The position numbers and the translations under genes are program-made. A model generated the notes under the pieces. It ran no database searches. It was given only the letters and a program-made list of their open reading frames with translations, and was not told where the DNA came from. Below, one piece after another: positions 1,653 to 63,110 of a stretch of 64,000 nt of DNA. The DNA comes from Acidaminococcus massiliensis (GTDB taxonomy: Bacteria; Bacillota; Negativicutes; Acidaminococcales; Acidaminococcaceae): NCBI RefSeq assembly GCF_900095825.1, contig NZ_LT608315.1, positions 1,352,311 to 1,416,310 of the forward strand, read 5' to 3'. How positions within the stretch are numbered: the first letter of the stretch is position 1; every line of letters begins with the position of its first letter.

Positions 1653-2807
1653 ATGAAGAAAATCGCAATCCTGGGATCTACAGGATCCATCGGCACCCAG
1701 ACCTTGGATGTGGTAGAGGCCAATCCGGAACGGCTCCAGGTGGCGGCGTTGGCTGCCCACAAGAATGATGTGCTGCTGGAAGCCCAGATCCGGAAATTCC
1801 ATCCTTCAGTGGCAGCTCTCTCCGATCCGGAGGCTGCCCAGCGGCTGCGCATCCGGTACCAGGGTCCCACGGAGATCCTCAGCGGTCCTGAAGGCGTCAT
1901 GGCGGTAGCCACGTGCTCGGAAGCGGATACGGTGCTGGGGGCTATGGTGGGCTATGCTGGGCTGCGGCCCACCCTGGCGGCCATCCAGGCCGGGAAAAAC
2001 ATTGCTTTGGCCAATAAGGAGACCTTGGTGGCGGCCGGGAGCCTAGTCATGGACGCTGTGAAAAAGGCGGGGGTCCAGCTGACTCCGGTGGACAGTGAAC
2101 ACAGTGCCATTTTCCAGTCCCTCCAGGGCAATGCCCACAAGGATCTGAAGCGGATCCTCCTGACTGCTTCTGGAGGGCCTTTCCGGGGAAAGAAACGGGA
2201 AGAACTCCAAAACGTGACGGTGGAGCAATGCCTGCACCATCCCACGTGGACCATGGGAACCAAGGTGACCATCGATTCTTCCACCCTTGCCAACAAGGGG
2301 CTGGAAGTGATCGAGGCCCACTGGCTCTTTGATGCTCCTTATGAAAAAATCGTTCCGGTGATCCATCCCCAGAGCATCGTCCACAGTTTGGTGGAATACA
2401 GTGACGGAGCGGTGATGGCCCAGCTGGGTGCGGCGGACATGAAGCTGCCCATCCAATATGCCCTCAGCTGGCCGGACCGCTGGCCGGTGGCTTTTGACCA
2501 GCTGGACCTGATGAAGGCCGGGCCCCTGACCTTTTATGAACCGGACACCGATCTGTTCCGGGCCCTTCCCTTGGCCATCCAAGCAGGGAAAACGGGGGGG
2601 ACCCTTCCCTGCACCTTCAATGCGGCCAACGAAGTGGCTGTAGCGGCATTCCTCCAGGGAAAGATTTCCTTCCTGGGGATCGCCGAACTGATCGAGAAAG
2701 TCCTGTCTGCCACGGTCCCGGTCCCGGTGGATTCCTATGGAACCATCGTAGAAGCGGATCGGAAAGCCCGGGAGCGGGCGGAAGCCTTTGTGCAGCAGGA
2801 ACAATAG
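1653..2807 (+). CDS. dxr: 1-deoxy-D-xylulose 5-phosphate reductoisomerase
   Basis: Second enzyme of the non-mevalonate (MEP) pathway: converts DXP to 2-C-methyl-D-erythritol 4-phosphate with NADPH. The N-terminal Rossmann motif GSTGSIGTQT (residues 8-17), ANKETLVAAG, the metal-binding PVDSEHSAIFQ and the flexible-loop/C-terminal block HPTWTMGTKVTIDSS are all present, and 384 residues is the usual length. A strong AAGGAGG site precedes the ATG. With ispG downstream and uppS upstream, the operon couples isoprenoid precursor synthesis to lipid-carrier synthesis. Confidence 0.97.
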   Translation: MKKIAILGSTGSIGTQTLDVVEANPERLQVAALAAHKNDVLLEAQIRKFHPSVAALSDPEAAQRLRIRYQGPTEILSGPEGVMAVATCSEADTVLGAMVGYAGLRPTLAAIQAGKNIALANKETLVAAGSLVMDAVKKAGVQLTPVDSEHSAIFQSLQGNAHKDLKRILLTASGGPFRGKKREELQNVTVEQCLHHPTWTMGTKVTIDSSTLANKGLEVIEAHWLFDAPYEKIVPVIHPQSIVHSLVEYSDGAVMAQLGAADMKLPIQYALSWPDRWPVAFDQLDLMKAGPLTFYEPDTDLFRALPLAIQAGKTGGTLPCTFNAANEVAVAAFLQGKISFLGIAELIEKVLSATVPVPVDSYGTIVEADRKARERAEAFVQQEQ

Positions 2808-2818
2808 GAGGATTTGCA

Positions 2819-3835
2819 TTGTTGACCATCTTAGCGGCCATTGTCTTGTTTGGCGTACTGATCACGGTCCATGAACTGGGCCATTTCCTGGCGGCCAAGG
2901 GTACCGGGATGCAGGTTACGGAATTTTCCATCGGATTCGGACCCAAGGTATTCCAGAAACAGGCGGGAGAAACCCTGTATTCCCTGCGGCTGGTCCCTCT
3001 GGGGGGCTACAACCGGATCACCGGGATGGAGCCGGGGGAGGCTGTGATGCCTCGGGGGTTCAACGGCCGGCCTATGTGGGCCCGGATGCTGGTGATCCTG
3101 GCAGGGCCCTGCATGAACTTTCTGCTGCCTTTCTTGATTTTCTTCGGGGTGTTCGCTGTGAAAGGACTGGCCCTGCCGGTGGATGAACCGGTGGTGGGGT
3201 CCCTGATGGAAGGGTATCCGGGGGCAGAAGCTGGGCTCCAGGTGGGAGACCGGCTGGTGAGCATCAATGGCCAGCCCCTGGAACGCTGGAACGAAATCAA
3301 CAGTCTGGTCCAGGAAAATGGACCGGCGGACAGCCGACTGGTGATCCAGCGGCAGGGAAAACAGCAGGCGCTGACCTTGAAGCCACGGTATGATGGGGAA
3401 TCCAAACGCTTCCTCATCGGGGTCCGGCCCCGGATCGAGCACCGTTCCCTTTCTGTTGGGGAAAGCCTGAAGACGGCGGCTCTTTCCGTGATCCGGATCA
3501 CCGGCGCCATGGTGGACGGGCTGCGGATGATGGCGACTGGGAAAGTCAGTGCGGAAATCGCCGGGCCCATCGGAGTGGCCCATATGGCCGGGGACGTGGC
3601 GGCCCAGGGCGCCGTTCCCTATTTGGAGTTCATGGCTTTCTTGAGCCTGAACTTGGCGGTGCTGAACCTGGTGCCCATCCCGGCCTTGGACGGAGGCCAG
3701 TTCCTGGTGCTGGTGGTGGAGGCGCTCCTGGGCCATGCCCTGGCTCCCCGGGCCAAGGAAATCATCCAGATGATCGGGGTGGCCTGCATCATCGCCCTGA
3801 CGGTTTTTGCCACCATGCATGATTTGCTGCAGTAG
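2819..3835 (+). CDS. rseP: Site-2 (RseP-type) membrane zinc metalloprotease
   Basis: Intramembrane protease that cleaves single-pass substrates such as anti-sigma factors and signal-peptide remnants. The zinc motif HELGH lies in the first transmembrane segment (about residues 18-22). A PDZ domain occupies about residues 125-200 (GAEAGLQVGDRLVSINGQ). The second metal motif NLVPIPALDGG is in a late membrane helix. Start is TTG with AGGAGG about seven bases upstream. At 338 residues it is the short single-PDZ form rather than the two-PDZ E. coli form. It sits between dxr and ispG, as in many Firmicutes. Confidence 0.93.
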   Translation: MLTILAAIVLFGVLITVHELGHFLAAKGTGMQVTEFSIGFGPKVFQKQAGETLYSLRLVPLGGYNRITGMEPGEAVMPRGFNGRPMWARMLVILAGPCMNFLLPFLIFFGVFAVKGLALPVDEPVVGSLMEGYPGAEAGLQVGDRLVSINGQPLERWNEINSLVQENGPADSRLVIQRQGKQQALTLKPRYDGESKRFLIGVRPRIEHRSLSVGESLKTAALSVIRITGAMVDGLRMMATGKVSAEIAGPIGVAHMAGDVAAQGAVPYLEFMAFLSLNLAVLNLVPIPALDGGQFLVLVVEALLGHALAPRAKEIIQMIGVACIIALTVFATMHDLLQ

Positions 3836-56951: not shown

Positions 56952-58940
56952 ATGAAAACTCTTTCGTTGGATCTGGAAACCTATAGCGATGTGAACCTGG
57001 CCAAGTGCGGCGTGTACAAGTATGCGGAATCCCCAGCCTTTGAAATCCTCCTTTTTGGGTATGCGGTGGATGGGGGAGCGGTGCAGGTCATCGACCTGAC
57101 TCAGGGAGAAAACATTCCGGAAGAAATTCTGTATGCCCTCACCGATGATACTGTCACCAAGTGGGCTTTCAATGCCAATTTCGAGCGCGTGTGTCTCTCC
57201 CGGTACCTTACCGATTTGGAGCGGAGCATGGACCCCTTCCAGGATCAGCATCCTCTGTCTCAAGAATGTGCCCGGTTCTTGAGTCCTGCAGGGTGGAAGT
57301 GCTCCATGGTCTGGTCCGCCTATATGGGGCTGCCTCTTTCCTTGGAAGGAGTAGGGGCCGTACTGAATCTGGACAATCAAAAAATGAAGGAAGGGCGGGA
57401 GCTGATTCGGTATTTCTGCGTTCCCTGCAAAGAAACCAGGATCAACGGCGGCCGGACCAGGAACCTTCCTCGACATGCCCTGGATAAATGGAACCTGTTC
57501 AAAAGTTATAACAAGCGGGACGTAGAAGTGGAAATGGCCATCCAGCAGCGATTGCAAAAGTACCCGGTGCCGGAACAGGTATGGGAGGAATACCATTTGG
57601 ATCAGGAGATCAACGACAGGGGAATTGCCATTGACCTGGAACTGGCCAAACAAGCAGTGAACCTGGATGCCAAAAGCAGGGAAAGCCTGATGGCAGCCCT
57701 GAAGGAACGGACTGGCCTGGAGAACCCAAATTCTGTTATCCAGATGTTGGAATGGTTGGAACAGCATGGCTTAAAGACGGATTCCCTGGGAAAGAAAAAT
57801 GTCCTGGAACTATTGAAAACGGCCCAGGAACCCTTGCGGAGTGTACTGCTTCTGCGGCAGAAGTTGGCCAAATCCTCGGTGAAGAAATATCAAGCTATGG
57901 AAATGACGGCTTGTAAGGATGGACGGGCCAGAGGTATGTTTCAGTTTTATGGAGCCAATAGGACCGGCCGGTTTGCCGGCCGGCATATCCAATTGCAAAA
58001 TCTTCCCCAGAACCATCTGCCGGACCTTTCCGAAGCCCGGGAGCTGGTACGCCAGGGAAACTATGAAGCCCTGGATCTTCTCTACGATTCCATTCCCGAT
58101 GTGCTGTCCCAGCTGATCCGGACGGCTTTTGTGCCCAGGCCGGGGATGAAGTTTGTGGTTTCGGACTTCTCGGCTATCGAGGCACGGGTCATTTCCTGGC
58201 TGGCGGGGGAAAGGTGGAAATCTGAGGCTTTTGCGGCCGGAAAGGATATCTACTGTTCTACGGCCAGCCAGATGTTTGGAGTGCCCGTTGTAAAACATGG
58301 CATAAATGGGGACCTTCGCCAGAAAGGGAAAATCGCAGAACTGGCCTGTGGCTACGGCGGGTCCGTTGGGGCATTAAAGGCCATGGGAGCCATCGAAATT
58401 GGTATCCCGGAAGAGGAACTGGGCCCCCTGGTCCAGTCCTGGCGCTCGGCTAATCCGCACATCGTCGATTTCTGGTGGCAGGTGGATGGGGCGGTGAAGA
58501 CTGCCGTTAAGCAGAGAATCCCTGCTTGGGTGAACAACATCCGTTTTTTTTGCCAGAGCGGTATGCTATTCATCGAACTGCCCAGCGGCCGGCGGCTTTC
58601 CTATGTAAAGCCTCGGATCGGGGAGAATCAATTCGGTGGAGAATCCGTGACCTATGAGGGCATTGGGGCCACTAAGAAATGGGAACGATTGGAAAGCTAC
58701 GGACCAAAGTTCGTGGAAAACATCGTCCAGGGAACAGCCAGGGATATCCTTTGCTACGCCATGCAGACCCTCCGGCACTGTGCTATTGTTGGACATGTCC
58801 ATGATGAACTGATCATCGAGTGCAGTAGGGATGTCAGTGTAGATGCCGTCTGTGAGCAGATGAGCCGGACCCCATCTTGGGCGGAGGGGCTGGTGCTTCG
58901 GGCAGATGGGTATGAGTGTGAATTTTATCAGAAAGACTGA
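56952..58940 (+). CDS. Phage family-A DNA polymerase
   Basis: 662-residue polymerase with an N-terminal DnaQ-like 3'-5' exonuclease (SLDLETYSD, residues 4-12; FNANFERVCL). The polymerase domain shows motif A VVSDFSAIEARVISWLAGE, motif B around GDLRQKGKIAELACGYGGS and motif C VGHVHDELIIE. This is the T7/SPO2-type enzyme of phages and ICEs, without a 5' nuclease. AAGGAG precedes the ATG. It ends the left replication operon; a strong terminator and an antisense cassette follow. Confidence 0.93.
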   Translation: MKTLSLDLETYSDVNLAKCGVYKYAESPAFEILLFGYAVDGGAVQVIDLTQGENIPEEILYALTDDTVTKWAFNANFERVCLSRYLTDLERSMDPFQDQHPLSQECARFLSPAGWKCSMVWSAYMGLPLSLEGVGAVLNLDNQKMKEGRELIRYFCVPCKETRINGGRTRNLPRHALDKWNLFKSYNKRDVEVEMAIQQRLQKYPVPEQVWEEYHLDQEINDRGIAIDLELAKQAVNLDAKSRESLMAALKERTGLENPNSVIQMLEWLEQHGLKTDSLGKKNVLELLKTAQEPLRSVLLLRQKLAKSSVKKYQAMEMTACKDGRARGMFQFYGANRTGRFAGRHIQLQNLPQNHLPDLSEARELVRQGNYEALDLLYDSIPDVLSQLIRTAFVPRPGMKFVVSDFSAIEARVISWLAGERWKSEAFAAGKDIYCSTASQMFGVPVVKHGINGDLRQKGKIAELACGYGGSVGALKAMGAIEIGIPEEELGPLVQSWRSANPHIVDFWWQVDGAVKTAVKQRIPAWVNNIRFFCQSGMLFIELPSGRRLSYVKPRIGENQFGGESVTYEGIGATKKWERLESYGPKFVENIVQGTARDILCYAMQTLRHCAIVGHVHDELIIECSRDVSVDAVCEQMSRTPSWAEGLVLRADGYECEFYQKD

Positions 58941-58949
58941 AAAATAATA

Positions 58950-58993
58950 AGAAGCGGCCGCAAGGAAACCATTTTTCTTGTGGCCGCTTCTTA
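58950..58993. terminator. Bidirectional terminator between the polymerase gene and the antisense gene
   Basis: AAGAAGCGGCCGCAAG / CTTGTGGCCGCTTCTT stem with a T-rich loop; A and T runs on both sides serve both convergent genes. Confidence 0.88.
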
Positions 58994-58995
58994 TT

Positions 58996-59712
58996 TCAGT
59001 TATCTTTGTTTACCTGTTTCTTCTTCGTTTCATAGAGTGCGATTTGGTCAGGGGATAGGAACTCCGCCAGGCTTAAGGCCGGCAAGGGAGTACCGAATAT
59101 CCAGGAAAGGCTTCGAATGAAATTCACGGTCTCAACTGACCGGTCAAAATATTTTACTTCTTCATCCAGAACGGACGGGTTGCAGTAGGCATTAAATCTT
59201 TCTCGTAAGTAGTTCCGGAGCCTTTCTTTGTCGGAAAAATTTTTCTGCATCTGGAGCTTGAAATAATTGATGGATTTCTTTTTGCTGATTTTGCATTTTC
59301 TGGTATGAAAAGAATAGGAAAAAGTAAGGAGACTGGAATCAGCGGTTTTCTCTGAAACGGCTTCTAACCGGAAACAGAGGGCAGGGTCCGTGGTATCGAC
59401 TTCTTCGAGATGGACCGTTTCATATCCTCTATGAAGGGCATAAAAGAAGGCCAGTATTCCCTTGAGCCCAGGTTCATAGAAGATAAAGTGATCATACGAT
59501 CTAAGATTCCGCCCTTTATATTTCAGGCGGTACCATTCGCCACCAGATAAATCAAATTGAAATTTCAAGACATCCTGGGTTTCAAAATCAAGGTTGCAGT
59601 CAGGGACTTTTGCTTCCTTTGCAAAAAATAAGTCATCCGGAATATGCTGCAGCGACTCATCCATCTTTTCATCCCGAAAAGATTCAGAGGGATGGACTTT
59701 CTGTTTTTCCAT
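58996..59712 (-). CDS. Unrecognised 238-residue protein in an antisense prophage cassette
   Basis: I do not recognise a family. The protein is soluble, rich in Lys, Phe, Asp and Tyr, without signal or membrane segments. Segments: FDLSGGEWYRLKYKGRNLRS, YDHFIFYEPGLKGILAFFYA, RLEAVSEKTADSSLLTFSYS, then a basic middle KCKISKKKSINYFKLQMQKN that could bind nucleic acid, and a helical C-terminus. The ATG at 59712 follows AGGAGG by 12 bases. It has its own promoter, is AT-rich compared with its neighbours, and runs opposite to the replication genes: the profile of phage cargo (moron) genes, many of which are defence or anti-defence. A structured RNA is encoded just upstream. Confidence 0.75.
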   Translation of the reverse strand: MEKQKVHPSESFRDEKMDESLQHIPDDLFFAKEAKVPDCNLDFETQDVLKFQFDLSGGEWYRLKYKGRNLRSYDHFIFYEPGLKGILAFFYALHRGYETVHLEEVDTTDPALCFRLEAVSEKTADSSLLTFSYSFHTRKCKISKKKSINYFKLQMQKNFSDKERLRNYLRERFNAYCNPSVLDEEVKYFDRSVETVNFIRSLSWIFGTPLPALSLAEFLSPDQIALYETKKKQVNKDN

Positions 59713-59775
59713 ATTGGTGATACGCCTCCTAAAACAGGAAATCATCAGGCCGAAAAGGCTCTTTTCCATAACAAT

Positions 59776-59804
59776 ATCATAGCGAAGCCAATCCGAAAAG
59801 ACAA
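59776..59804 (-). promoter_or_regulatory. Promoter of the antisense cargo gene
   Basis: On the minus strand TTGTCT (59804-59799), 17-base spacer, TATGAT (59781-59776), about 60 bases before the ATG. Confidence 0.7.
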
Positions 59805-59862
59805 TCCAAGATTCTGCTCAAAATTTTCTTTTTTACGGAAAAAAATTAAAACAAATGGAGAA

Positions 59863-60102
59863 AACTGGGTATGCAAATTATCACATACCCAGTTCTGTTA
59901 TGCAGGAAAAGAAAGTACTCTTCTCTGGTGGCGGCTACCTTCACCAACCGGCTCCGGCGCCGATTCTATTCTGGACAGTAATCCGCCTGACGGAAAAGCT
60001 GCAACCTGATATAGATTACTGCTAATCCGCGACGGAAGTCACCGCTCCGCAAAGTGCCGGAAAGAGCGCTGCCCTAAAGCCTAGAAAGAAGAGTACTTTG
60101 GA
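59863..60102 (-). ncRNA. Structured prophage RNA of about 240 nt (novel candidate)
   Basis: Minus-strand RNA with its own promoter at 60137-60109. A perfect 13-bp helix (AAAGTACTCTTCT at 60099-60087 with AGAAGAGTACTTT at 59924-59912) closes a domain of about 160 nt. Internal helices include GATTACTG / CAGTAATC (59976-59983 with 60014-60021) and a TGGTG / CACCA hairpin (59926-59946). After the closing helix an 11-bp hairpin AACTGGGTATG / CATACCCAGTT (59863-59894) with a U-rich tail can terminate it. The GC-rich domain stands out from AT-rich flanks. No coding frame crosses it and no known RNA family was recognised. Confidence 0.6.
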
Positions 60103-60108
60103 ACTGTA

Positions 60109-60137
60109 ATTCTATCAGAGAGCCGAAGAACCGTCAA
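60109..60137 (-). promoter_or_regulatory. Promoter of the structured RNA
   Basis: On the minus strand TTGACG (60137-60132), 17-base spacer, TAGAAT (60114-60109). Transcription would start near 60102, two or three bases before the 13-bp closing helix. Confidence 0.75.
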
Positions 60138-60154
60138 TTAATTTTTGCTTTTCT

Positions 60155-60185
60155 GGTACTTATCCCAGCGGATTCTGTCCTGTTA
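60155..60185 (+). promoter_or_regulatory. Bipartite prophage motif, site 2
   Basis: GGTACTTATC-N11-TGTCCTGTTA, the same halves and spacing as at 54653, followed in both by an (A/G)GGT and a purine-rich AGGG. It is 80 bases before the ATG of the second replication operon. Confidence 0.55.
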
Positions 60186-60265
60186 CAGGTAGAGAAGGGA
60201 ATCTTCTCAAGTCCATGTAGCGGGATTGGAATCTGCTATTTATTTTTTGAAGGAGTGATAACGCC

Positions 60266-60496
60266 ATGTTTTATGTGAAGGAACCGATTACGGACAATAT
60301 GGAATTTCAGATGGAAATCACGGACAAGAATGTGTTCTGCCGGTGTCCGGTTTGCGGGAAGGAAGTGCCGGTAAACCTGGAAAAAGTCTTGGGCAAAGGG
60401 AAAGGGGACTTGTTCGGGACAGCCATCTTGTGTGAAGACTGTTCCCGGGAACTGATGGAGGTGGGCCATGGAGATGGATCAAAAGCGGAATGCTGA
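60266..60496 (+). CDS. Small zinc-ribbon prophage protein
   Basis: 76 residues with CRCPVCGKEV and LCEDCSREL, two CxxC pairs of a zinc ribbon spaced by about 30 residues. AAGGAG precedes the ATG. It overlaps the DUF4406 gene by 29 bases. No function known; first gene of the second replication operon. Confidence 0.7.
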   Translation: MFYVKEPITDNMEFQMEITDKNVFCRCPVCGKEVPVNLEKVLGKGKGDLFGTAILCEDCSRELMEVGHGDGSKAEC

Positions 60497-60866
60497 ACAT
60501 TATCCGGATCCCACGGCTTATCAGGCCATCCGGAATACAGAACCGCCCAGGTTTCCTTTTCGACCGGTAGTGTACGTTTGTTCACCTTATGCGGGAGACG
60601 TGGAAAGAAATGTCCTGCGGGCTCGACGTTGCTGCCGGTATGCCGCAGACCATGGGTGCATCCCCCTGGCACCCCATCTGTTCCTGCCCCAGTTCCTGGA
60701 TGAAAAGACGGAACGGAATCTGGCCCTATTCATGGGGATTGCACTTTTGTCCAAATGTGCCGAGCTCTGGATCTTTGGCGAGAATATTTCCCAAGGAATG
60801 GAACTGGAGATCCGTTATGCCCAGAAAAAGGGAAAGCCTATCAAGTATATCAGCGAGGTGATCTAG
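60468..60866 (+). CDS. DUF4406 protein, nucleoside 2-deoxyribosyltransferase-like
   Basis: 132 residues. VVYVCSPYAGDVERNVLRAR and ALFMGIALLSKCAELWIFGE, with SQGMELEIRYAQKKGKPIKY, are the hallmarks of DUF4406, a Rossmann-like family related to nucleoside 2-deoxyribosyltransferases and common in phages. The Glu in SQGMELEI aligns with the catalytic one. The ATG has GGAGGTGGGCC upstream. It could act in nucleotide modification or salvage; unproven. Confidence 0.85.
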   Translation: MEMDQKRNAEHYPDPTAYQAIRNTEPPRFPFRPVVYVCSPYAGDVERNVLRARRCCRYAADHGCIPLAPHLFLPQFLDEKTERNLALFMGIALLSKCAELWIFGENISQGMELEIRYAQKKGKPIKYISEVI

Positions 60867-63110
60867 GTGAAATTTACGTTATTTACGGCATCCTGTACGG
60901 GGGTAGAATCCAACTGCCGGTATCCTCAGAAACAGGAAATCCAAAATGCTCAGGACCTAAAAGCGGCGGCTCAATTTGACCATGTTTGCGCGGCCTATAA
61001 AAACAGCTACCGGAGTCGGGATAACTTCCTTTGGTCCGATGTGGCCGTCATGGATTGCGACAATGACCATACGGAAAATCCTGGAGAGTGGGTGACGGGA
61101 GAGAAGTTCCTTGCCATGCTGCCGGGGGTAGCCGTGGCCATTGTCCCTTCCCGGAATAACGAAAAAGCCAAAGACGGACGGAAAGCCAGGCCTCGGTTTC
61201 ATGCCTATTTTCCCATTCCGAAACTCCAGGATGAAAAAGCCTATTCCATCTTGAAGCAGGAAATTCGGGAGCAGTTTTCCTTCTTCGATGAAGCAGCCCT
61301 GGATTCTGCCCGGTTTCTCTATGGAAGCCCAACAGAATCCGTTCAGTGGCAGGAGGGGGAAGAATCCATTCTGGCCATTTTCCAATCTTCCCGGCAGGAA
61401 GGCTCCATTCCCCAAGGCCAGCGAAACAATACCATGAGCCGTTTTGCCGGACGCATTGTCAAACGGTATGGAGATTCGGAACGAGCCTACTCCATATTTT
61501 TGGAAGAAGCCAACAAATGCAACCCTCCCCTGGAGGCAGAAGAACTGAACAAAATCTGGCAGAGTGCCTTGCGGTTTGGGAAGAAAATCGCGGCCCAGGA
61601 AGGCTATGTTAGCCCGGATCAGTACAATCAGGATTTTGGCCAGGGGGAAAGCCTGCGGCCCAGTGACTATTCGGATATTGGTCAAGCCAAGGTGCTCCTG
61701 CGGGAATACGGCAATGAACTGCGGTATACGGAAGAAGCTGACTTTATCCGGTATAACGGGGTGTATTGGATGGAATCCCGGCAGGCAGCTGTGGGGGCAG
61801 TGGAAGAATTTCTTGATTTACAGCTGGCCGATGCAACGGACCAAGGGGAACAGGCTGTTCGGGAACTGGTCCAGCTGGGGCTGCCTCAAGAGGTAGTCCG
61901 GAAAGGTGGAAGGCCCCTGGAAAAGATCATTGAAGTGGGCCAGCAGAAGGCCTATGCAGGGTATCTAGCTGCAGAAGCCTACCGAACCTTTGTGATGAAG
62001 CGACGGGATATCCGGTATATCCTGTCGGCACTCCAGGCTCTGAAACCCATGATCCTGCTCCCCATCCAGTCCCTGGATGCTGATGAATTTCTTCTGAATA
62101 CCCCTTCGGCCACCTATGACCTGCGGCAAGGGATGAAAGGCGGCCGGGAACACCGGGCAGAAGATTTCATGACCAAGTGTACGGCTGTGGATCCGGGGGA
62201 TGCAGGCCGGGAAATTTGGGAAAAAGCCTTGGGGGCATTCTTCACCCATGACCAGGACCTGATTCAATATGCCCAGAAAATCAGCGGGCTCATGGCCATT
62301 GGGAAAGTGTATGTGGAAGCTCTGGTGATTGCCTATGGGGATGGGCGGAACGGGAAATCTACATACTGGAATTCCATTGCCCGGGTATTGGGGACCTACT
62401 GCGGTGGCATCTCGGCAGACGCCCTGACCGCCAACGGCAAGCGAAATATCCGGCCGGAAATGGCAGAACTCAAGGGAAAACGGATGGTGATCGCGGCAGA
62501 AATGGAAGAAGGGGTGCGGCTTTCTACTTCTGTGTTGAAGCAAATCTGTTCCACCGATGAAGTGGGCGGAGAGAAAAAATACAAGGCGCCCTTCCAATTT
62601 GTCCCCTCCCATACCATCGTTCTCTATACCAACCACCTGCCCAGGGTGGGAGCAAGCGACGAAGGGACCTGGCGCAGGCTGATCGTCATTCCGTTTACGG
62701 CACAATTTACCGGGAAAAGTGAAGTGAAAAACTACACGGACTACCTTGTGGAGAAAGCCGGCCCGGCCATCCTCCAATGGATCATTGAAGGGGCCCAGAG
62801 AGTCATCGAGAAGGACTACCATCTGGATCCTCCTCAATGTGTCCGGGAGGCCATTGAAAAATATCGGGGACAGAATGATTGGCTCCATCATTTCCTGGAC
62901 GACTGCTGCGAACTGGCGCCTAGTTTCCAAGAAAAATCCGGGGAGCTGTATGGAGCTTATCGGGCGTACTGTCAACAGATGAATGAATACACCCGGAGTA
63001 CGTCCGATTTTTATGCTGCCCTGGAAAATGCAGGCTTTGCACGTAGGCGTACCAAAGTGGGGCGGTTTGTTACCGGATTGCAGTTAAAAGCAAGTGATTT
63101 TTTGGAATAA
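60867..63110 (+). CDS. Phage/plasmid primase-helicase (P4/D5 family, VapE-related)
   Basis: 747-residue replication initiator. The N-terminal primase-like part has VAVMDCDNDHTENPGEW with an acidic DxD, and RPRFHAYFPIPKL (AEP-type). A D5 N-terminal region spans about 330-480. SF3 helicase follows: Walker A AYGDGRNGKST (about residues 490-500), Walker B region KRMVIAAEMEEG and sensor FVPSHTIVLYTNHLPRV. GTG start, abutting the DUF4406 stop. It should unwind and prime the element's origin. Confidence 0.9.
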   Translation: MKFTLFTASCTGVESNCRYPQKQEIQNAQDLKAAAQFDHVCAAYKNSYRSRDNFLWSDVAVMDCDNDHTENPGEWVTGEKFLAMLPGVAVAIVPSRNNEKAKDGRKARPRFHAYFPIPKLQDEKAYSILKQEIREQFSFFDEAALDSARFLYGSPTESVQWQEGEESILAIFQSSRQEGSIPQGQRNNTMSRFAGRIVKRYGDSERAYSIFLEEANKCNPPLEAEELNKIWQSALRFGKKIAAQEGYVSPDQYNQDFGQGESLRPSDYSDIGQAKVLLREYGNELRYTEEADFIRYNGVYWMESRQAAVGAVEEFLDLQLADATDQGEQAVRELVQLGLPQEVVRKGGRPLEKIIEVGQQKAYAGYLAAEAYRTFVMKRRDIRYILSALQALKPMILLPIQSLDADEFLLNTPSATYDLRQGMKGGREHRAEDFMTKCTAVDPGDAGREIWEKALGAFFTHDQDLIQYAQKISGLMAIGKVYVEALVIAYGDGRNGKSTYWNSIARVLGTYCGGISADALTANGKRNIRPEMAELKGKRMVIAAEMEEGVRLSTSVLKQICSTDEVGGEKKYKAPFQFVPSHTIVLYTNHLPRVGASDEGTWRRLIVIPFTAQFTGKSEVKNYTDYLVEKAGPAILQWIIEGAQRVIEKDYHLDPPQCVREAIEKYRGQNDWLHHFLDDCCELAPSFQEKSGELYGAYRAYCQQMNEYTRSTSDFYAALENAGFARRRTKVGRFVTGLQLKASDFLE

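Follow-up and report, generated by a model that had tools for sequence, protein, structure and literature searches.

Does the antisense stretch between the polymerase gene and the primase operon of this prophage hold one module, in which a structured RNA works together with the protein encoded beside it, or two separate pieces of phage cargo? The window (the whole stretch of 64,000 nt that was analyzed) belongs to a 2.67 Mb genome, and its phage replication module, at 56952-63110, consists of a DNA polymerase gene (polA) followed by a short operon that closes with a large primase/helicase-type gene. An RNA unit and a protein gene lie on the minus strand between the polymerase and the next gene, where the initial annotation had placed them. 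The nearest relative with the same features, G001 (one contig of 2,329,769 bases), which we take to be Acidaminococcus fermentans, contributes two prophage loci, L131 and L132; its prophage matches viral record 646311901. The features discussed below are:

59862..60102, minus strand: RNA unit, with a predicted start near 60102 and an end past the terminator hairpin (from fold z-score, homologues and covariation)
60109..60137, minus strand: sigma-70-type promoter of the RNA, TTGACG-17-TAGAAT (same architecture and distance in six of six family members)
59912..60099, minus strand: P1-closed structured core (consensus structure)
60099-60086 with 59912-59925, minus strand: helix P1 (both-side changes at 6 of 15 pairs in six sequences)
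60085-60082 with 59965-59968, minus strand: start of the P2 arm (both-side changes at 3 of the 4 entry pairs in six sequences)
59964-59959 with 59947-59952, minus strand: helix P3 with loop GCCGGA (both-side changes at 2 of 6 pairs in six sequences)
59946-59938 with 59926-59934, minus strand: helix P4 (consensus structure)
59863..59894, minus strand: terminator-like hairpin, AACTGGGTATG-loop-CATACCCAGTT, then a T-rich stretch (sequence; compensatory change relative to L132)
58999..59712, minus strand: 238-residue orphan protein gene, a separate neighbouring accessory gene with its stop codon at 58996-58998 (dN/dS; pattern of presence in L131 and L132)
59776..59804, minus strand: promoter-like site for the protein gene, TTGTCT-17-TATGAT (by itself no better than chance)

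The RNA unit has the elements that had been read into it. Its closing helix consists of 13 Watson-Crick pairs (60099-60087 with 59912-59924) and one further G-U pair, and the additional long-range pairing is reflected in a minimum free energy of -103.5 kcal/mol, compared with a mean of -72.6 for shuffled sequences (z = -6.6, with none of 200 shuffles folding as well). The predicted architecture, a closing helix P1 with arms P2-P4 around a four-way junction, is one folded domain without repeated units. The terminator-like hairpin is likewise present, and in L132 a C-G pair is replaced by A-U, a compensatory change. Of the region described as AT-rich, the protein gene (42% GC) and its leader (36%) fit that description, the window as a whole having 54%, whereas the RNA (50%) scarcely does. 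The promoter of the RNA stands at 60137-60109 on the minus strand; a promoter scan by itself finds no more sites here than chance would give (2, with 1.8 expected), and the weight of this promoter comes from its conservation in relatives.

To find these relatives we used covariance models. A model built from the two Acidaminococcus sequences recovers a shorter, 129-nt relative in G101, a genome from another Negativicutes family, at E = 5e-11 per genome (covariance E-values here and below are rough, coming from a short calibration), and a nucleotide search with the G101 sequence recovers G105 and G114. Conversely, a model built from G101, G105 and G114 only finds the window RNA with 42 bits (E = 1e-7 over 144 kb), L132 with 44 bits and a further member in G253 with 110 bits. 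Because recovery is reciprocal the homology of the family is firm, and the 13-bp closing helix does have covarying homologues, as the initial annotation had asked. The family set comprises six distinct sequences: the window, L132, G101, G105, G114 and G253.

Beyond this set the searches give little. A third covariance model yields no new members in 398 genomes sampled from the phylum, and among viral contigs the sole copies are the ones matching the window, G101 and G105. A DNA similarity search of phage and plasmid collections returns nothing above chance, a 14-base P1 pattern has only chance matches in viral contigs, and a 17-base pattern has chance matches in genome contigs of unrelated phyla. 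Rfam scans of the window and its relatives at permissive E-values assign no family to the RNA, which is present as one copy per locus and at most two per genome. By these searches the family is absent from Rfam 15, narrow and rare. One covariance match, in G006, has a low score, lies inside an unrelated regulator gene and is taken as chance, and the viral contig L279 matches a pattern but not the covariance model. A weaker match to the RNA model (35-38 bits) was seen at L259:8326-8456 in G043, from the same family as the window; it may be a degenerate member or chance, and is left out of the set because it has no promoter.

Is the fold itself maintained? In the six-sequence alignment 19 of 50 pairs are changed on both sides, compared with 9.3 ± 2.0 in shuffles (0 of 500 as high) and 1-4 in slid controls, and cells with both sides changed number 32, compared with 11.5 ± 2.7 in shuffles and 1-5 in slid controls. 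The alignment used for the pair counts was fitted to the covariance model, a step that favours the structure, but the slid controls still fall far below the observed values. Standard pairs make up 93% of the cells, and in P1 the compensatory changes are plain on inspection (GUACUCUUCU/AGAAGAGUAC versus GCACUUUCCU/AGGAAAGUGC). Covariation in excess of both shuffled and slid controls indicates that the fold of P1 with P2, P3 and P4 around the four-way junction is under selection; the members in G101 and G105, which lie inside a phage gene, could also be under coding selection. On the predicted strand the cells contain 23 G-U and only 2 A-C combinations. Since an A-C would be a G-U on the opposite strand, this asymmetry marks the minus strand of the window as the working strand, acting single-stranded.

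The promoter is conserved as well. All six loci have a -35 element of the TTGACN or TTGATT type, a constant 17-nt spacer and a -10 hexamer (TAGAAT, TAAAAT, AATACT, TATACT, TATAAT and CATACT), ending 5-7 nt upstream of the RNA model, and these promoters rank first to third among approximately 2600-3100 positions per locus. In a comparison of the window with L132 the hexamers are conserved, but the spacer and the upstream sequence are unrelated. Because promoters are not part of the covariance models, they provide independent evidence for a transcription start near 60102. Homologues and covariation thus support the earlier proposal that the phage cargo includes a structured RNA with an independent gene on the minus strand. 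As far as sequence comparison can tell, the RNA is a member of a Negativicutes structured-RNA family outside Rfam, encoded on the minus strand and selected for its fold at unrelated sites.

What would such an RNA do? The best explanation, and one that we consider probable, is that 60137-59862 on the minus strand is a self-contained structured sRNA gene, accessory (moron) cargo of a temperate phage, whose product acts in trans and probably binds a protein. With its own sigma-70-type promoter and terminator, the unit would be transcribed in the lysogen, and the transcript would fold into a stable RNA with its two ends paired. This RNA would then act in trans on a protein of the host or the phage, to which it would bind as an inhibitor, decoy or scaffold. 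The benefit may be that the lysogen is protected or that the host is controlled. Protein binding is likelier than base-pairing silencing, since conservation falls on the shape and the GGA hairpin loop of P3 and not on a long unpaired guide. The RNA adds a covariation-supported family, not in Rfam 15, to what Negativicutes phages carry. Whether it stands free or lies antisense within a phage effector-type gene, its promoter geometry is the same, which makes it a concrete and testable case of a mobile cargo RNA, one whose action may be directed at other phages or pass between phage and host.

The genomic contexts of the family members bear on the alternatives. The RNA is intergenic after polA in the window, in a second prophage of the same genome (prophage B) and in L132; it is intergenic on a small contig in G114, and in G253 it lies within a chromosomal gene cluster, flanked on one side by two type I-F-like CRISPR repeats and on the other by a HipA_C kinase gene. 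The repeats of G253 (L258:7900-8300, upstream of the RNA) are 60 nt apart, match Rfam CRISPR-DR4 with 33 bits and occur nowhere else in that genome; after the RNA come a half repeat and a T run, followed by the kinase gene. In G101 and G105 the RNA is antisense and in frame within an orthologous giant phage gene, directly after domains that differ between the two: the domain in G101 has a weak similarity to a PBECR3 nuclease that stays below the cut-off (E = 0.015), and no domain is called in G105. Phage proteins in which PBECR is one of several domains have been described as polyvalent and as probably entering the host by injection (PMC5512222). No neighbour recurs at every locus; what the loci have in common is the RNA unit together with its promoter.

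Where the RNA lies antisense within an effector-type gene, this placement suggests that it may regulate or counter that effector. In the most direct form of this idea the RNA would pair in cis with the giant phage gene and silence it, and its free copies would act in trans against related incoming phages. The antisense placement in both G101 and G105, each with its own promoter, speaks for such a regulator, but no complementary gene is found in the genome of the window (the only matches are its two RNA genes themselves), those proteins of the window's prophage that were scanned against Pfam include no PBECR or similar gene product, and it is the helices that are conserved, not an open seed. 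We regard antisense regulation as unlikely, and favour protein binding over it because there is no second long match in the RNA's own genome.

The link between RNA and protein can be judged within the genus, where four prophage loci have the same site in common: the window's prophage (A), prophage B, L131 and L132. Both RNA and protein are present in A and in the decayed prophage B. In L131 the protein is kept and the sequence jumps from window position 59834 to 60140, leaving no RNA, whereas in L132 it jumps from 58947 to 59863, so that the protein is absent and the RNA directly follows polA; two other small genes with signal-peptide-like starts adjoin it there. Since the RNA is missing in L131 and the protein in L132, this is a cargo site at which the two are gained and lost independently. 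A cassette, in which the RNA neutralises or guides the 238-residue protein as in type III toxin-antitoxin systems or as RCd22 does with AbiF, is therefore decidedly unlikely, even though both prophages of the window's genome have the RNA immediately before the protein gene and on its strand, G001 has RNA and protein in one cell (in two prophages), and in G253 the RNA and the HipA_C kinase gene that comes after it point the same way. The two units have separate promoters, none of the genomes of the distant RNA loci (G101, G105, G114 and G253) yields a relative of the protein, and neither part matches the known RNA-guided, type III toxin-antitoxin or AbiF families. The initial annotation had taken RNA and protein as a single module and asked whether they always travel together; they do not, the RNA occurring without the protein in L132, G101, G105, G114 and G253 and the protein without the RNA in L131, and that first reading is corrected to two independent cargo pieces.

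The protein gene (59712-58999) has the strong ribosome site described for it, AGGAGG, and the promoter-like site at 59804-59776, and the basic segment is confirmed as TRKCKISKKK. A dN/dS of 0.25-0.27 among its three copies indicates that it is a real gene. It is as unrecognised as had been said: there is no Pfam or PADLOC match and no known toxin or defence family, no relative rises above noise in the rest of the class, and the two AlphaFold models have a mean pLDDT of 39-41, so that the fold is not trustworthy. It is a separate accessory gene in the same cargo site downstream of polA.

Besides the window's prophage, two Acidaminococcus prophages carry the RNA, and both look decayed. Prophage B (L133 and L282) is heavily decayed into many short colinear pieces, with polA, protein, RNA and the next gene retained as one 3.6-kb block. 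The 552 bp around the RNA are identical between prophages A and B, which suggests recent recombination, and we do not count the 100% identity of the RNA as selection for that reason. Relative to the window, the RNA body of L132 is 97% identical and the adjacent polA 86%.

Very unlikely, in our estimate, is that the RNA confers immunity against phage-injected effector proteins. The copy antisense inside the giant effector-type gene would in that case protect the producer, and free copies transferred to prophages or chromosomes would bind the effector and protect their carriers from superinfecting phages.

A mobile palindromic DNA element without RNA function, comparable to the Rickettsia palindromic elements that insert in frame into genes, would account for the long terminal inverted repeats, the unrelated insertion sites and the open reading frame that runs through the element in both G101 and G105. 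It would not account for the strand asymmetry of wobble pairs (23 versus 2), for a promoter kept in six of six loci, for the compensatory change in the terminator hairpin of L132 or for the low copy number given above, and we consider it highly improbable. A CsrA/RsmA sponge, whose GGA hairpin loops would titrate CsrA, has next to no probability: the P3 hexaloop ends in GGA in six of six sequences and csrA is present in G101, G105, G114 and G253, but the A normally found two bases ahead of GGA is missing from the loops and, unlike in hosts of CsrB/RsmZ-type sponges, csrA is absent from both RNA-carrying Acidaminococcus genomes (the window's host G000, 99.99% complete, and G001, one contig, 99%), so that this cannot be the common function and is rejected for Acidaminococcus.

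Returning to the reading as a trans-acting structured sRNA, its working mode would by analogy be most like that of prophage accessory sRNAs. DicF, IsrK, svsR and the Pas sRNAs of E. coli and Salmonella are also trans-acting, prophage-carried accessory genes with their own promoters, but they are mostly base-pairing RNAs (PMC5069750, PMC4825925, PMC12803456, PMC13192938), whereas here the whole P1-closed fold is conserved, the phylum is another and no Rfam sequence relation is found. The cassette idea has its closest full analogue in RCd22-AbiF, from a prophage of Clostridioides difficile (PMC12373285; abiF motif RF03085). There too, an RNA of approximately 100-240 nt is carried by a phage, has a promoter and a terminator to itself and immediately precedes a protein gene in the same orientation. 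However, permissive Rfam scans of the window and relatives give no RF03085, the Pfam scan does not place the protein in Abi_2/AbiD/F, RNA and protein are separable in contrast to the fixed linkage there, and each unit has its own promoter-like site whereas RCd22 and abiF are co-transcribed (PMC12373285). Since the motif, the Abi_2 protein and the fixed linkage, which are the defining features, are lacking, we class the RNA as a phage accessory structured RNA, a new RNA family, and not as part of a toxin-antitoxin or defence module. Type III toxin-antitoxin systems differ in having a tandem-repeat antitoxin RNA, which is absent here, as are a Pfam or PADLOC toxin match and a maintained RNA-protein linkage. 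RNA anti-CRISPRs (Racrs) are also small phage-encoded RNAs, and the G253 copy adjoins type I-F-like repeats, but Racrs mimic CRISPR repeats (PMC10651486) and no such repeat is found within our RNA, those of G253 being confined to that locus and outside the RNA. With 6S RNA it shares a length of approximately 190 nt and paired ends, but it has a four-way junction instead of one long rod with a central bubble; 6S was rejected because this RNA does not match RF00013, the only 6S found in the genome being the host's own chromosomal gene (76.6 bits).

Some minor observations concern the surrounding prophages. Between the convergent polA and protein genes of the window, 58948-58993 forms a 20-bp hairpin with T-rich ends that is likely a shared terminator; weak Rfam matches of this segment to plant microRNAs are chance. 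The polA of the sister prophage in G001 (L131:15210-18125) encodes 971 aa instead of 662, with approximately 310 aa inserted at the point matching window 58346-58349; the insert starts with CIAEGQLVLTDHGLIPIEKV, ends with VHNC and looks like an intein. Near the right end of the window's prophage (L281:4248-8918) are two radical SAM genes with small unknown genes between and after them, possibly peptide-modifying cargo, and an amidoligase_2 gene lies between the replication and packaging genes of the prophage (L280:4962-5870).
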